This document shows positions 9,402-22,820 of a DNA stretch of 33,783 nucleotides, in pieces. This DNA is from a virus. Below the pieces are notes generated by a model that saw only the letters and a list, made by a program, of their open reading frames with translations, did no database searches and was not told the DNA's origin. The translations under genes and the position numbers were made by a program. The first letter of the stretch is position 1. Each line of letters starts with the position of its first letter. Where the stretch lies: positions 1 through 33,783 of IMG/VR virus record IMGVR_UViG_3300046009_003669, one strand, 5' to 3'.

Positions 9402-10061
9402 TTAGAACGGTAGCGAGCCATCGTCTTCGTTATCGACGACCGGCACGGTGCTGGTGGTTGGGATAGACGGTGTTTCCTTCTGGCCTGATGTTAGCTTGGG
9501 GCTAACCTTCGCCGCCAGTTCGGCCTCGACAAATACGAGTTGCTTAGTACTGTCAAACATCGTCTGGCCGTTTACCATCATGACTTCGAGGTCAGGCAGT
9601 TGCGTCTTGGTCGGATCAGGACGCATGGACGTGCAATACGGACGCTCCAGTTTGTTACCGTTTTGGTAAACGGTCGCCCCGATGATGGTCTTCTTCGGGT
9701 TGTCGTCTGGGCTGAATGAGTACGGCACGATCTTGATCGCCTGCTTGCCATCGAAGGCCGGGTTGCATAGTGCCAAGATGATGGTCTTGGCGTAACTCGA
9801 TGTGTACTTCATCGTCACAACGTAGCGCTGGTCATCTTCGATGACGATTCGCCACTGCTTGCCGAAGTCACTGTCGGCAGTGCTGATACTTCGCACGATA
9901 CCACTGATAGAATCGGCCACCCACTCGTATACGACGTTACCGTCTTTCGTAGTGCGCGTGGTGGTGGATGCGTTCGGTTCTTTGTATCGCACGCGAAGTT
10001 TGCCCTCCGAGATAGAAACATATACCGCGCTAGTGGTTGGGGTTTCTTGATTCAAACCCAT
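9402..10061 (-). CDS. SSB-like protein with acidic C-terminal tip
   Basis: A 219-aa protein with a beta-rich body (AVYVSISEGKLRVRYKEP, WRIVIEDDQRYVVTMKYTSS, ATVYQNGNKLERPYC) and a Ser/Thr/Pro linker ending in the acidic tip NEDDGSLPF. That tip closely resembles the DD-x-x-PF tail by which bacterial SSB recruits repair and replication proteins. I infer that it coats single-stranded phage DNA and recruits the neighbouring exonuclease or the VapE helicase. The OB fold itself cannot be proven by eye. It starts at ATG 10061 after AGGAGCC, downstream of a terminator-like hairpin (10127-10165). Confidence 0.68.
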   Translation of the reverse strand: MGLNQETPTTSAVYVSISEGKLRVRYKEPNASTTTRTTKDGNVVYEWVADSISGIVRSISTADSDFGKQWRIVIEDDQRYVVTMKYTSSYAKTIILALCNPAFDGKQAIKIVPYSFSPDDNPKKTIIGATVYQNGNKLERPYCTSMRPDPTKTQLPDLEVMMVNGQTMFDSTKQLVFVEAELAAKVSPKLTSGQKETPSIPTTSTVPVVDNEDDGSLPF

Positions 10062-10170: not shown

Positions 10171-11079
10171 TCAGACTCCGGGCGATGTTGATTCGAAAGG
10201 CGCGGTCGTAAGGGGAGCAGACGGGCGGCTTTGCATCGCAGCGGAGTTGTCAAATATACGCGATTGTGTGTTTGCGTACGCTTCTAATATCACCTGATCG
10301 GGGTCGATCTCAACATAGTGCCCATCACCGGGGAGCGTGCCACGAAATAGGAATTTCGACTTCGGCTTGCGTTCGTTGGTGAGCTTGTATAGTTCACTGC
10401 GCAGGCGCGGCACTTCGGGATCGACGTTAAACGTGTTCTCTTTCAAGTTATACGTCGGCGAGCGTCGCCAGTCCTTCGGATGCCAGTTGTAGTGGCGTTC
10501 GACTTGGTACTCCGGCCTCTGCAAGGCCATCTCATTCCACGCCTGACGATACATCTCCGTCTGTACGGCGTGGTCGTCGTAGGACGAAGTCCCGCTCTTA
10601 AAATCGATGATCGACAAATCGCGCTGGCCGGTCTTCGGATCGGTCAGCCAAGCGATCAGGTCACAAGCGCCGGCATAACATAGGTCATCGTGCCATAGCA
10701 TGACTTCAATGCCGAGCGGCTCGACTTTGTAGTCCCTACAAAACTGATCGAAAGAAAGCAAGGCCTTGCTTTGGAAATCCGTCAGCATCGCCAGCTCGAC
10801 GTTGTGCCCCTGCAGATACCGTTCGAAATTCAGGTGCATCTCCGTGCCGCGTTCGGCGGCTTCGTCTCTGAGCTCGTTAGCGTTTTCAATGCCGTGTTTG
10901 GCATACCACGCCATCAGCCCCGGAGGCGTTGGCGATGTGGCCCGAATGATACTTGTGACCGATGGATACCAAATGACCTTCCCGCGTTCGTTTACACGTG
11001 CATATCGACGGTCGCCTGCGTTATGGTCATAGCGGTATAATGGCTCGACGCTGATGGCGTCGTAGATGGTGGGTTTCAT
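10171..11079 (-). CDS. RecB/Cas4-like PD-(D/E)XK exonuclease
   Basis: A 302-aa nuclease of the RecB/Cas4 type. The motifs appear in order: RGTEMH with His82, IEVMLWHDDLCYAGACDLIA with Asp140, LSIIDFKSG with Asp159-x-Lys161, and QTEMYRQAW with the Gln173…Tyr177 motif typical of this subgroup. Such phage enzymes resect double-stranded ends for recombination with an SSB or annealing protein, and the SSB-like gene is the next gene downstream. The C-terminal 30 residues are Ser/Pro/Thr-rich and look disordered. The start ATG 11079 has AGGAGCCACCT ahead. It is separated from the SSB-like gene by a terminator-like hairpin. Confidence 0.88.
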   Translation of the reverse strand: MKPTIYDAISVEPLYRYDHNAGDRRYARVNERGKVIWYPSVTSIIRATSPTPPGLMAWYAKHGIENANELRDEAAERGTEMHLNFERYLQGHNVELAMLTDFQSKALLSFDQFCRDYKVEPLGIEVMLWHDDLCYAGACDLIAWLTDPKTGQRDLSIIDFKSGTSSYDDHAVQTEMYRQAWNEMALQRPEYQVERHYNWHPKDWRRSPTYNLKENTFNVDPEVPRLRSELYKLTNERKPKSKFLFRGTLPGDGHYVEIDPDQVILEAYANTQSRIFDNSAAMQSRPSAPLTTAPFESTSPGV

Positions 11080-11096
11080 AGGTGGCTCCTGTGTGT

Positions 11097-11315
11097 TTAG
11101 TTAAGTTTAGCTCTTTGCGCTTCGTCATCATACCGTTCCCTGCGGTCGGCTTCCGTCACCATGTTCACGACGTCCAGCAGACTGCCGGCCAGTTCCTTGG
11201 GGATGGCCTCCAGTTTCACCAGATGGTTGGCTAGTGTGCACAGCATTGTGTAACTGTTTAGGATAGCCATCTTCTCCTCATGTGAGCGTTCCCGCCATTT
11301 CAGTTCAAAGATCAT
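11097..11315 (-). CDS. Small helical unknown protein
   Basis: A 72-aa protein, almost entirely helical by pattern (HEEKMAILNSYTMLCTLANH, then LVKLEAIPKELAGSLLDVVN) with a charged C-terminus. It has no recognisable motif. It overlaps the small membrane protein gene upstream by four bases (ATGA) and ends 17 bases before the exonuclease start, so it is co-translated with its neighbours. The function is unknown. Confidence 0.6.
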   Translation of the reverse strand: MIFELKWRERSHEEKMAILNSYTMLCTLANHLVKLEAIPKELAGSLLDVVNMVTEADRRERYDDEAQRAKLN

Positions 11316-11536
11316 GGCCGTGCCTCCATCTGAAATACGTCAACGTGAGCGTGCTGAGGCGGCACGTCGGTATAAATCATGCCCAGTAGCAACACGCCAG
11401 CCATGCCCACGATTACGGTCGTGATCACTAGCGAGTAGATACGCTGCTTTGCGGTTCCTCTGAAATACGGCGCAAGTCTGAAATGCTTGCGACCGATAGC
11501 GTCTGTGCACGTCGTGCATTCGATGCCGAGTCTCAT
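11312..11536 (-). CDS. Small membrane protein
   Basis: A 74-aa protein with one strong transmembrane helix at about residues 34-55 (YSLVITTVIVGMAGVLLLGM). The N-terminal part has cysteines at about 7 and 10 in ECTTC and a basic stretch (RKHFRLAPYFRGTAKQR) before the helix, so it probably sits N-in. It starts at ATG 11536 directly after GGGAGCAGACAG, preceded by a seven-unit AC repeat, the same leader type as three other early genes. A frame of 89 codons in another register covers it but is judged a shadow. Confidence 0.62.
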   Translation of the reverse strand: MRLGIECTTCTDAIGRKHFRLAPYFRGTAKQRIYSLVITTVIVGMAGVLLLGMIYTDVPPQHAHVDVFQMEARP

Positions 11537-11566
11537 CTGTCTGCTCCCAAAAGTGTGTGTGTGTGT
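11537..11566 (-). repeat. AC-microsatellite leader of the membrane protein gene
   Basis: On the minus strand, seven AC units (11566-11553) are followed by TTTT, then GGGAGCAGACAG, then ATG. The GGGAGCAGACAG block is identical to that before the gene at 13107. Here there is no conserved hairpin upstream of the repeat. Confidence 0.75.
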
Positions 11567-11605
11567 TATGGGTTGTTATCCCATAACGTGACCAATCTAC
11601 GTAAT

Positions 11606-12280
11606 TCACTGCGGAAATAAAAACGGCAATTCTGCGGCATCCTCACGGACGCGGTGCAGATAGTCGTAGGCTTCGCGAGCATCGGCAAGGGCCTTGCTAT
11701 GATCGGCTATCGTCAGGCCTCCGACGTGGTGGACGTAGGCACGACTGACGAATATACGTGCTCCTGCGGTCGTCATGTCGTGACATTGCACGTTATCCGA
11801 GTACGTATTGCAGTGCGGGAAATCTACCCAAGTCGAGGGCTGGACTACTGAGCATATCGGGGCGATCATCTTGGTTTCACGGATGGCGCTGCCGTCGTTG
11901 TTGCCGATCCACTGCAGGTTCCGCAGAATGTTATCGGCACGGCAAGCGACGTGCCCCCAGTTCGTAATGCCCTGAGCTTCCAATGCGTCGACGTCTTCCA
12001 TTAGGATGCGGTGGGTATCGGGCCGGAATACGATGTCGTCGTTGCAGATAACCACGCGGTCATAGCCAAGGTTGAAAGCCTGATGCACGGCGGCGTTGTA
12101 TGATTCGCCGAATGAAGTTCCTACATTGGGCATCCAGTGATTCGTACCGGCGTACTCACGTTGTGCGTCCGGGTGGCTGATGACCATCGGTATGGTGTGC
12201 AGATAGGCCTGCTTAGATGCGAGCATAACGTCCAGAGTGTTGCGATCGCGTGTGCATACGACGTAACAAGTGAGCTTCAT
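11606..12280 (-). CDS. Glycosyltransferase, GT-A fold (early region)
   Basis: A 224-aa protein that begins like a GT-A enzyme (MKLTCYVVCTRDRNTLDVML). It has the nucleotide-sugar signature VGTSFGESYNAAVHQAFNLG at about 53-72 and the metal-binding VVICNDDIVF at about 76-85, where NDD stands for the usual DxD. The acceptor side (MIAPICSVVQPSTWVDFPHC) shows no family-specific motif. In an early block the substrate could be modified phage DNA bases or a host surface component; the sequence does not decide. It overlaps the 62-aa gene by four bases (ATGA). A second glycosyltransferase of different sequence lies in the tail block at 22077-22820. Confidence 0.8.
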   Translation of the reverse strand: MKLTCYVVCTRDRNTLDVMLASKQAYLHTIPMVISHPDAQREYAGTNHWMPNVGTSFGESYNAAVHQAFNLGYDRVVICNDDIVFRPDTHRILMEDVDALEAQGITNWGHVACRADNILRNLQWIGNNDGSAIRETKMIAPICSVVQPSTWVDFPHCNTYSDNVQCHDMTTAGARIFVSRAYVHHVGGLTIADHSKALADAREAYDYLHRVREDAAELPFLFPQ

Positions 12281-12465
12281 GACGGCCTCCGAGTGTTGAG
12301 GTCTCTCAATTTCGAATCTAATTCTTGGAGCCGGTCGGCGGCTTCAAGTAGAGCGGCCTCAGCTACGCCATCGCCAGTATTAAGAGCGGCGGCGAGAATG
12401 CGCAGGGCTTTGATAAGGGTTTCGGTCGAGCTCCGGCCGGGCGTGTGCTTTGCTTCCGTGCTCAT
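12277..12465 (-). CDS. Small helical unknown protein
   Basis: A 62-aa protein with a polar N-terminus (MSTEAKHTPGRSST), then two helices: LIKALRILAAALN and AEAALLEAADRLQELDSKLR. The AALLEAADRLQEL pattern recurs in small phage proteins of unknown role. It overlaps the 45-aa gene upstream and the glycosyltransferase downstream, each by four bases (ATGA), forming a tightly coupled trio. Confidence 0.65.
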   Translation of the reverse strand: MSTEAKHTPGRSSTETLIKALRILAAALNTGDGVAEAALLEAADRLQELDSKLRDLNTRRPS

Positions 12466-12599
12466 GACTTGCGCCCCTTATCTATCGCCGCGTTGGCGGC
12501 TTTGAGCTTCTGCTCTGCGTCTTTGACGGCTGCGGCAAGGGTCTTGCCAGTGCCGATAATCTTACGACCCCTGCGGTCGAATGTGGTGGCTGTTGCCAT
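12462..12599 (-). CDS. Small basic protein (45 aa)
   Basis: I translated ATG 12599 to TGA 12464-12462: MATATTFDRRGRKIIGTGKT, then a lysine-rich amphipathic helix (LAAAVKDAEQKLKAANAAID) and KGRKS. It is very basic and may bind nucleic acid or an acidic partner. The start follows GGGAGCAGACACC and an AC repeat, and the stop overlaps the next start (ATGA). A 77-codon frame in another register covers the same bases, but the frame here is favoured by the leader, the ribosome site and the overlap. Confidence 0.6.
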   Translation of the reverse strand: MATATTFDRRGRKIIGTGKTLAAAVKDAEQKLKAANAAIDKGRKS

Positions 12600-12653
12600 G
12601 GTGTCTGCTCCCGTGTGTGTGAAAGTTGCGCGTTGTGCAGCCGCGCCCCTGCT
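12600..12653 (-). repeat. Structured AC-repeat leader, copy A
   Basis: On the minus strand: AGCAGGGGCGCG, a nine-base loop, CGCGCAACTTTC, 4.5 AC units (12621-12613), then GGGAGCAGACACC and ATG 12599. GCGCG (12646-12642) and CGCGC (12632-12628) form a perfect five-base stem. Copy B (12852-12916) has the same order and differs by two loop bases, the repeat length and the last few bases. Confidence 0.8.
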
Positions 12654-12659
12654 AAGCTG

Positions 12660-12851
12660 TTATCGCGTTCCGTTCCCTTCGCCATCTGCTGTTTCGGCGT
12701 TATAGATATACTCAAACATGTGACGGTTTGAAGATTGGAATTTTATGTAGGCGCTGTCGAAATACTTTTCAAGCGCTGAAAGTGTGCGCGCTTCGCCAAA
12801 TAACTTGATAAGCTTTTGCGCGACATTGTAATAAGCTGTTAGGCGTGTCAT
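12660..12851 (-). CDS. Small unknown protein (63 aa)
   Basis: The product is MTRLTAYYNVAQKLIKLFGE followed by ARTLSALEKYFDSAYIKFQS and an acidic tail. It is helical, with several aromatic residues, and has no known motif. ATG 12851 is chosen because GGGAGC precedes it and upstream in-frame codons would read straight through the AC repeat (as His-Thr-His-Thr) and back over the previous gene. The gene lies between two copies of the structured AC-repeat leader, as an independent expression unit of the early operon. Confidence 0.65.
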   Translation of the reverse strand: MTRLTAYYNVAQKLIKLFGEARTLSALEKYFDSAYIKFQSSNRHMFEYIYNAETADGEGNGTR

Positions 12852-12916
12852 GTCTGTGCTCCCGTGTGTGTGTGTGTGTGTGTGAAAGTTGCGCGTTATG
12901 CAGTCGCGCCCCTGCT
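12852..12916 (-). repeat. Structured AC-repeat leader, copy B
   Basis: The order is the same as copy A: AGCAGGGGCGCG, a nine-base loop, CGCGCAACTTTC, then 10.5 AC units (12884-12864), GGGAGCACAGAC and ATG 12851. The stem GCGCG/CGCGC (12909-12905 with 12895-12891) is conserved. A second hairpin, CCTGCT (12933-12928) with AGCAGG (12916-12911), spans the stop codon of the upstream gene only in this copy. Confidence 0.8.
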
Positions 12917-12921
12917 GGTAT

Positions 12922-13107
12922 TTACTTAGCAGGTGCGAAAGATGCGTTGTCAAGGTGCTCGACCTTAGCACCGTCGCAAATGAACGCCATCGCTTTGAGT
13001 GCCGACATTGGGAAAACGCGCATTGCGCTACGGCTGTAAGAATAGTAACGCTCGCGGTTTTTCTTGTCGCGCTTGACATAAACCGTGTTCCAAGTTAGCT
13101 TTTCCAT
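12922..13107 (-). CDS. First early gene, small basic protein (61 aa)
   Basis: A 61-aa protein (MEKLTWNTVYVKRDKKNRER, then YYSYSRSAMRVFPMSALKAM). The N-terminal half looks like a beta hairpin with a strongly basic turn (KRDKKNRER); the C-terminal half is mixed. It has no known motif. It is the first gene after the early promoter candidate, so it should be among the first and most strongly made products; small basic first-gene products often target host functions (inference only). The start follows CGGGAGCAGACAG and the longest AC repeat in the window. The stop lies within a hairpin. Confidence 0.65.
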   Translation of the reverse strand: MEKLTWNTVYVKRDKKNRERYYSYSRSAMRVFPMSALKAMAFICDGAKVEHLDNASFAPAK

Positions 13108-13144
13108 CTGTCTGCTCCCGTTGTGTGTGTGTGTGTGTGTGTGT
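13108..13144 (-). repeat. AC-microsatellite leader of the first early gene
   Basis: On the minus strand 11.5 units of AC (13144-13122) precede ACGGGAGCAGACAG and ATG 13107. Because it lies between the promoter candidate and the first start codon, it forms most of the 5' untranslated leader. Dinucleotide runs of this length are prone to slippage. Confidence 0.8.
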
Positions 13145-13158
13145 TGACTGACGTATGC

Positions 13159-13185
13159 AACATAACACTTATTTCAATAATGCAA
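13159..13185 (-). promoter_or_regulatory. Early promoter candidate (extended -10)
   Basis: On the minus strand TTGCAT (13185-13180) is followed, 15 bases later, by TATGTT (13164-13159) preceded by TGT, an extended -10 pattern. The surrounding A/T-rich tract (eight T on the plus strand at 13190-13197) could act as an UP element. It is the only clear gap before the early genes and lies just after a terminator. Confidence 0.5.
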
Positions 13186-13187
13186 AC

Positions 13188-13214: not shown

Positions 13215-13246
13215 TTCAGCCCCCTCCACACTAGGCAGAAGGGGCC
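13206..13246 (-). terminator. Terminator at the end of the structural operon
   Basis: On the minus strand GGCCCC… (from 13246) pairs imperfectly with …GGGGGC (to 13219) to give a GC-rich hairpin with about a ten-base loop. Six T residues follow (13212-13207). It lies 25 bases after the stop of the last gene (13271) and separates late from early transcription on the circular map. Confidence 0.6.
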
Positions 13247-13270
13247 ACGACTCAGCATAAGACTTGCGCC

Positions 13271-13456
13271 CTACGACTTCGTTTCGATTCGCGCTATACT
13301 TGCTATCGCCCGGATGCGATCTTCTGTTATGCCCAGGAGCTTCTGCATTTCGAACTTGCGTACCGGCAGGCCCTCGTGGGCAATGCATCGCCGCAAAGCC
13401 CTTGCGAGCTCCATGTAGTCAGCCATGCGTTGGTCGTTTGCTACGGAACTCATCAT
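13271..13456 (-). CDS. Small helix-turn-helix-like protein
   Basis: A 61-aa protein. Residues 13-55 (YMELARALRRCIAHEGLPVR, then KFEMQKLLGITEDRIRAIAS) read as helices with a helix-turn-helix-like LLGITEDRIRAI. It is the last gene of the structural operon, with its start overlapping the preceding stop (ATGA) and a terminator shortly after. A small regulator is plausible because it ends next to the early promoter, but the evidence is only positional and by pattern. Confidence 0.55.
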   Translation of the reverse strand: MMSSVANDQRMADYMELARALRRCIAHEGLPVRKFEMQKLLGITEDRIRAIASIARIETKS

Positions 13457-22076: not shown

Positions 22077-22820
22077 TTATCCTTGGTATTTCTGGAGATG
22101 TTGAGAATCCCGAGCAAGCATTTGCGACCACAACGTAAGCTTACGCTGATCGTCGCATGATGCGTACTCGGTAGAGAGTAGTTTCACATTGCGCTCCAGT
22201 TTGGCTTTCATCTTGTCGGCTGAGATTTCATAGCCCACATGGTGCACAATGAGAGAACAGGGGGCGGCACGGAATCCAGCTTCGTCGATGCTCCATCCGA
22301 TTTGCTCGTGCGCAGCACCCTCGAATTGGAACCCGTAGCCGTTGCGAAACAAGCGTATCGTTGGCACGTGGTAGCGCACGGCGTCGTCAAACTCCGTCCC
22401 CGTATGCGTCTGCTGTGATCCCACACAGCCGCAGATTAGTCCGCCAATGCCTGGCGGGTATTCGGATAGGCGTTTGAAAAAGTCGTGCTGGTGAACCATT
22501 AGTCTGTCGTCGGCATCCAGCCACATGATCCACGGACGTGTTGCCAGTGCAATACATTCGTTGCGCAGATTTGCGAAGTGTAGTTTTGTCTTGACTGTCT
22601 TGTAATATCTGACAACCGTGTTGCCGTAGGTCTTCGTCTTACGATGGACGGTAGGTTCTTCGACTTCGCCGATGCTATTCCACAAGACGACGACCTCGCT
22701 ACCGTTGGGGATGGTGCGAAGTAAATCGAGCATATAGTGGGCATCGGATTCCGATGCGATTACGCAGACGGAAAGCGGCAACCCCTCAGGTTGCAAGGGG
22801 ACTATTTCAGGCGTTGACAT
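22077..22820 (-). CDS. Glycosyltransferase, family-2-like, inside the tail operon
   Basis: A 247-aa GT-A enzyme. The N-terminal Rossmann-like start is LSVCVIASESDAHYMLDLLR. KTKLHFANLRNECIALATRP at about 77-96 leads into WIMWLDADDRL, with DAD at 102-104 binding metal and nucleotide-sugar. EGAAHEQIGWSIDEAGFRAA near 177-196 resembles the GAxHE-type segment of family-2 enzymes that modify repetitive substrates. It starts at ATG 22820 with CGGAG ahead, overlapping the 70-aa gene by 14 bases and ending six bases before the tail tube gene. The position suggests glycosylation of virion proteins, or of the host envelope, during late infection. The donor sugar is unknown. Confidence 0.85.
   Translation of the reverse strand: MSTPEIVPLQPEGLPLSVCVIASESDAHYMLDLLRTIPNGSEVVVLWNSIGEVEEPTVHRKTKTYGNTVVRYYKTVKTKLHFANLRNECIALATRPWIMWLDADDRLMVHQHDFFKRLSEYPPGIGGLICGCVGSQQTHTGTEFDDAVRYHVPTIRLFRNGYGFQFEGAAHEQIGWSIDEAGFRAAPCSLIVHHVGYEISADKMKAKLERNVKLLSTEYASCDDQRKLTLWSQMLARDSQHLQKYQG

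Follow-up and report, generated by a model that had tools for sequence, protein, structure and literature searches.

Layout of the early block and its four AC leaders

The IMG/VR record IMGVR_UViG_3300046009_003669 is a stretch of 33,783 bases from an uncultured phage; the whole stretch is called the window here. Its genes lie on the minus strand and include head and tail genes, a terminase, a primase/helicase and an exonuclease. Downstream of the structural block, which ends at 13453, come a 61-aa gene, then an intrinsic terminator and a promoter-like pair (Table 1). A generic promoter scan did not pick up this pair, which was assigned by pattern and position; a pair with the same 16-nt spacing was kept in four phages, reading TTTGCA/TATATT in the nearest relative (L008) and TTGACA/TATATT in two further relatives (G001 and L135). 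From the pair, a transcription start would be expected near 13152.

Four small genes downstream of the terminator and the promoter-like pair are each preceded by a run of AC units. Their placement after both elements bears out the claim, made earlier from the letters alone, that the four genes belong to the early block. All four runs read AC on the sense strand, GGGAGCA stands between run and ATG each time, and GGAG lies 7-8 nt upstream of the ATG. The gaps to the upstream neighbour gene were 163, 70, 60 and 69 nt for AC-led genes 1-4, respectively.

Table 1. Features of the early block, all on the minus strand, in order of transcription.
Feature	Position	Description
Intrinsic terminator	13217..13247	TGGCCCCTTCTGCC-TAGTG-TGGAGGGGGCTG then AAACTTTTTT; closes the structural-gene block
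Promoter-like pair	13159..13186	TTTGCA-16 nt-TATGTT; pattern and position
AC run 1	13122..13144	11.5 units, 23 nt; ends 14 nt before ATG 13107
Shine-Dalgarno block, gene 1	13108..13119	GGGAGCAGACAG; gene 13107-12922
Gene 1	12922..13107	61 aa; no family match; unrelated 83-aa gene in its place in L008
Intergenic hairpin	12891..12909	GCGCG-ACTGCATAA-CGCGC (block GCAGGGGCGCG...CGCGCAACTTT); before AC run 2
AC run 2	12864..12884	10.5 units, 21 nt; ends 12 nt before ATG 12851
Shine-Dalgarno block, gene 2	12852..12863	GGGAGCACAGAC; same 12 letters in leader 1 of G001
Gene 2	12660..12851	63 aa; no significant family match; absent from L008
Intergenic hairpin, copy 2	12628..12646	GCGCG-GCTGCACAA-CGCGC; before AC run 3
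AC run 3	12613..12621	4.5 units, 9 nt; ends 13 nt before ATG 12599
Shine-Dalgarno block, gene 3	12600..12612	GGGAGCAGACACC
Gene 3	12462..12599	45 aa; no family match; retained in L008 (96% aa)
Inverted repeat	11565..11587	GTTATGGG-ATAACAA-CCCATAAC; directly before AC run 4; identical in L008
AC run 4	11553..11566	7 units, 14 nt; ends 16 nt before ATG 11536
Shine-Dalgarno block, gene 4	11537..11548	GGGAGCAGACAG
Gene 4	11312..11536	74 aa; one hydrophobic stretch; no family match
Short version ACACACA	11090..11096	directly before GGAGCC; exonuclease gene 11079-10171; absent in L008

The sequence-only reading had described four AC runs sharing a leader and a ribosome-site block, and the measured run lengths confirmed this. 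It had placed the run ends 12-18 nt upstream of the ATG, which measurement narrowed to 12-16 nt. Its statement that no other gene carries such a run held for runs of at least 4 units, but short versions were found at the exonuclease gene and upstream of GGAGCC at the gene starting at 22820 (CACACA). GGAGCCA is itself another shared ribosome site of the window; it occurs at 11079 and 22820 after a short AC run, and also at the starts 21399 and 10061, which follow gaps of about 110 nt without AC runs.

A chance origin of the runs was ruled out by Markov simulations of second and third order, for which the window with the runs removed served as training sequence. These gave an expectation of 0.16-0.19 AC runs of at least 9 nt on both strands, and zero of at least 12 nt in 300 trials.

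Searches of PHROGs, Pfam and PADLOC gave no significant family match for the AC-led genes, the single PHROGs match of gene 2 standing at E 0.095. The anti-host role that the sequence-only reading had linked with this region gained no support from these searches and is at most a possibility. The product of gene 4 is a probable membrane protein, judged by eye. The four-leader region showed no Rfam covariance-model match up to E 5, and its DNA had no match among isolated phages; the closest of these showed low protein identity only, and their hosts disagree. Between genes 3 and 4, positions 11606-12280 encode a 224-aa protein without a PHROGs or Pfam match, with at least 80 relatives in IMG/VR at 33-43% identity outside the sister contig; by eye only, it is glycosyltransferase-like (NDDIVF).

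The elements upstream of the runs differ. Runs 2 and 3 share the GCGCG hairpin, of which a third copy followed by T6 occurs in G001 (18174 downward), run 4 follows another inverted repeat and run 1 follows none. Hairpin and AC run as one functional unit were considered and rejected, as hairpins were no commoner before AC runs than at other intergenic starts (p = 0.38; 41 controls), and we therefore claim no hairpin-AC element.

Leaders and genes in relatives of the window

The nearest relative (L008, also G002; IMGVR_UViG_3300034106_002537) shows 89-95% DNA identity to the window over most of its length and carries the same promoter and leaders with other run lengths. Run 1 measured 26 nt in L008 and 23 nt in the window, run 3 measured 6 nt (3 units) and 9 nt, and run 4 measured 21 nt (10.5 units) and 14 nt. 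Both the inverted repeat before run 4 and GGGAGCAGACAG after it were unchanged in L008, and because these flanks are identical, the length of run 4 truly varies. The earlier suggestion that the unit number is variable was thus borne out by counting units in relatives. An assembly artefact is unlikely, since AC leaders of differing lengths stand at corresponding places in two separately assembled relatives.

These differences, together with a length difference between two other loci (17 nt in L190 and 21 nt in L211) and a predicted openness that depends on the number of units, are what a contingency locus might show, in which AC slippage would set leader length, hence expression, and give mixed levels in populations. 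Against this, the run 4 difference of 7 nt is no whole number of units, and short runs of 12 nt do not differ between close relatives. Tuning by slippage is a plausible idea, but as the explanation of the leaders we judge it distinctly improbable. Slippage may be one source of the changes in run length; recombination may also have made them.

The genes behind the leaders changed as well. L008 has a different gene behind leader 1, and window genes 1 and 2 are missing. The distant relative (G001, also L025; IMGVR_UViG_3300008120_000179) shows 23-75% protein identity with gene order largely shared, and no relative of any AC-led window gene was detectable in it. Its order runs from a structural gene through a terminator and a promoter (TTGACA-16-TATATT) to CACACACACACACAC-GGGAGCACAGAC-ATG and a 53-aa gene, followed by a hairpin block GCAGGGGCGCGTCTGCACAACGCGCGACTTTTTT-CACACACACAC-GGGAGTAGACAG-ATG. 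The leader block was 88% identical between G001 and the window, against 64-70% DNA identity for most matching structural genes. Since promoter, AC run and Shine-Dalgarno (SD) sequence are kept in G001 in front of unrelated early genes, the leaders outlast the genes. The hairpin-AC-SD unit occurs in two copies in the window and one in G001, at 83-88% identity.

On relatives without an AC run, named earlier as a possible objection, the finding was mixed. The third relative (L135) has a promoter with the same spacing and then a degenerate leader, CACACAGACAAGAGCACAGAC-ATG; its first gene is 95% identical to that of L008 and is followed by ACACACACACA-ACACACGGAGGTTTACT-ATG. This first gene is preceded by only CACACAGACAAGAG, with CACACA before a weak SD and no long run. 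A long AC run therefore appears not to be indispensable, as the near-identical first gene of L135 stands without one.

Comparison of L008 and L135 also showed a 284-bp segment that is 93% identical (coding part 240/252). One of its borders lies within the AC run that precedes gene 1, the other in an AC tract beyond the gene's stop codon, while the adjoining genes were 67-76% identical or unalignable. The simplest reading of this patch is that one gene was exchanged recently, the borders of the exchange falling in AC leaders, and from this single event the leaders look like exchange joints. They could be mainly that, short stretches of shared DNA at which phages recombine and trade small early genes as cassettes, with or without an effect on translation: besides the patch, gene 1 is a different gene in the window, in G001 and in L008/L135 although a single promoter-leader is conserved in front of it, and the hairpin-AC-SD unit is repeated. 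We consider this rather unlikely as their main role, as only one exchange event is clear, so short a run is a weak substrate for general recombination, and the joints are perhaps a by-product of conserved leaders, given that any shared intergenic sequence could serve.

Recurrence of AC leaders

IMG/VR was scanned for at least (CA)5.5 followed in order by 0-6 nt, GGAG, 5-9 nt and ATG. At least 119 further stretches matched (AC)n-GGAG-ATG in the forward pattern. Among the matches listed, leader sequences were mostly unlike one another, and 14 loci held two to five AC leaders. A first pattern scan had given 27 matches, mostly coding or chance, with true leaders only a minority. The reversed pattern was found 2 times in the fetched loci and the forward pattern 140 times, a count set aside as evidence because the loci had been picked by the forward pattern. 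Among the IMG/VR matches listed, an upstream gap of at least 40 nt preceded 65/89 AC leaders and 196/505 other GGAG-ATG starts, a comparison with some circularity, as any non-coding tract has to fit into a gap.

The design is met separately in IMGVR_UViG_3300035698_002854 (G054/L143, L263), in which six AC-led genes have closely similar blocks with n = 4.5 to 9, for example GCTGCACTAAAGCAGCA-(AC)n-TGGAGCTACACTA-ATG. Several leaders in L143/L263 also carry hairpin-like GCCCATCCC...GGGGTGGGC, followed by GCTGCACTAAAGCAGC and then by (AC)n-TGGAGCTACA-ATG, a leader family more extensive than that of the window. In another phage group (L037, L054, L055, L060, L063, L074 and L087), AC runs of 5.5-6.5 units reach the ATG or end a few nt short of it (aaaACACACACACACATGGACGC...); with no SD in between, these are perhaps SD-less starts on a CA tract.

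Zero AC-leader matches were found in 49 phage records that had been collected for unrelated purposes, and a search for a longer AC run found none in 149 genomes of the phylum of Leucobacter. Taken with the IMG/VR matches, these results show a design that is recurrent but not general, and no rule for phages at large. The sole host-genome match, in Leucobacter (CACACACACCGCAGGGAGCACACACATG), was isolated and was taken as coincidence.

A candidate translation leader

The AC leaders are real, non-random and recurrent, and judged from their sequence they are most likely translation leaders. We propose, with a probability of about 0.62, that AC run, GGGAGCA and ATG together make a stand-alone translation initiation leader with an unstructured CA-repeat tract. 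The tract would form no structure and would hold both the upstream hairpin and the gene away from the SD. As a CA-rich sequence it would offer a landing or standby site for the 30S subunit, perhaps contacted through ribosomal protein S1, and would raise translation. Such a leader would serve early genes without coupling to the gene upstream, gene 1 standing behind the promoter and the others 60-70 nt downstream of a neighbour. Each run lies between an intergenic gap and an SD-ATG at usual spacing, which fits a translation leader. As counter-points, no AC run precedes the genes at 10061, 21399, 32386 and 4154, although their upstream gaps measure 55-110 nt, and the first gene of L135 has only CACACA before a weak SD.

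RNA structure prediction gave the AC tracts a mean unpaired probability of 0.76-0.96. The predicted cost of opening the region from -38 to +3 was lower with the native tract than with 90-100% of length-matched random tracts, and for every one of the four leaders it was also lower than with (GU)n. For leader 4, (GA)n was predicted to open the site slightly better than native AC. More AC units lowered the predicted opening cost, in part because the tract shifts the upstream hairpin away from the start. The earlier idea of an unstructured standby site is consistent with these predictions, and we take the tract as an enhancer or standby site from its predicted openness together with published effects of ACA and CA sequences.

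In Salmonella, ACA motifs upstream of the SD are translation enhancers, thought to anchor the 30S subunit; replacing all ACA motifs of dppA caused a more than 100-fold loss, and the enhancers tolerate a shifted position (PMC3879156). CA repeats placed after the start codon stimulate expression in a manner that depends on repeat number (PMC4611024). The enterobacterial enhancers (yifK, dppA, gltI; PMC3879156) resemble the window leaders in having an ACA-containing, unstructured, CA-rich stretch just before the SD. However, the described cases concern either individual genes that bear short ACA motifs or repeats that were engineered (PMC3879156, PMC4611024), whereas the window has pure runs of up to 23 nt on several operon genes, kept as the genes change.

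In another role, the runs would be binding sites of a regulator such as a GU-rich antisense RNA, a CsrA-like protein or a MazF-type nuclease cleaving at ACA. Two precedents are discussed in PMC3879156: GcvB base-pairs with CA-rich enhancers upstream of the SD and so silences genes, and ACA is the cutting site of MazF. The region showed no RNA family match, the coding strand lacks a (GT)n run of at least 8 nt as an antisense partner, and nothing in the window phage points to such a factor, so that this role appears highly improbable beside that of a translation leader.

The layout has a closer parallel in the Start-Associated Sequences (SAS/ESAS) of Cluster K mycobacteriophages (PMC3203893), with a similar motif in Cluster EF Microbacterium phages (PMC7302621). 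As in the window, a ribosome-site block is repeated directly before the ATG in one orientation, in the non-structural region only and on genes of different families, with letters beyond the SD conserved; SAS genes mostly follow gaps of more than 50 bp, as do the AC-led genes. About half of the SAS copies have an upstream inverted repeat with a common consensus, thought to bind proteins. In the window, a hairpin is common to runs 2 and 3, run 4 has a different inverted repeat and run 1 has neither; in other AC-leader phages hairpins were no more frequent than at other intergenic starts. The 13-bp SAS consensus is GGGATAGGAGCCC, from which the window block, GGGAGCAGACA(G/C) or GGGAGCACAGAC, departs. 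SAS also lack a dinucleotide run, number 11-19 copies against 4, and have no described length variation. The statement that no regulon built this way has been described thus stands for AC runs in the part of the literature covered, open papers, where no phage operon with AC-run leaders was found, though in layout the window is similar to the SAS. At the tisB standby site (PMC7708055), too, a single-stranded tract ahead of the SD is where the 30S subunit binds first; about 100 nt separate that site from a sequestered ribosome-binding site downstream, whereas the window SD is predicted to be open and the tract nearly abuts it.

The AC leaders thus combine two known things, CA/ACA translation enhancers and mycobacteriophage SAS. 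A broader version of our proposal, that (AC)n-SD is a general plug-in socket of phage accessory operons that evolved more than once in unrelated phages, acting at once as self-sufficient translation start, length dial and exchange joint by which distant phages trade small early genes, is tentative and on balance doubtful. Because the leader persists when its gene is replaced, it is a simple DNA mark that may help to find variable early (accessory) genes of uncultured phages. Natural CA-repeat leaders that differ in unit number also offer material for a long-standing question, how CA repeats ahead of a gene act at the ribosome. Two IMG/VR contigs (L145, L197) carry very long AC runs ahead of an SD-ATG, of 31 and 32 nt in one and 51 nt in the other.
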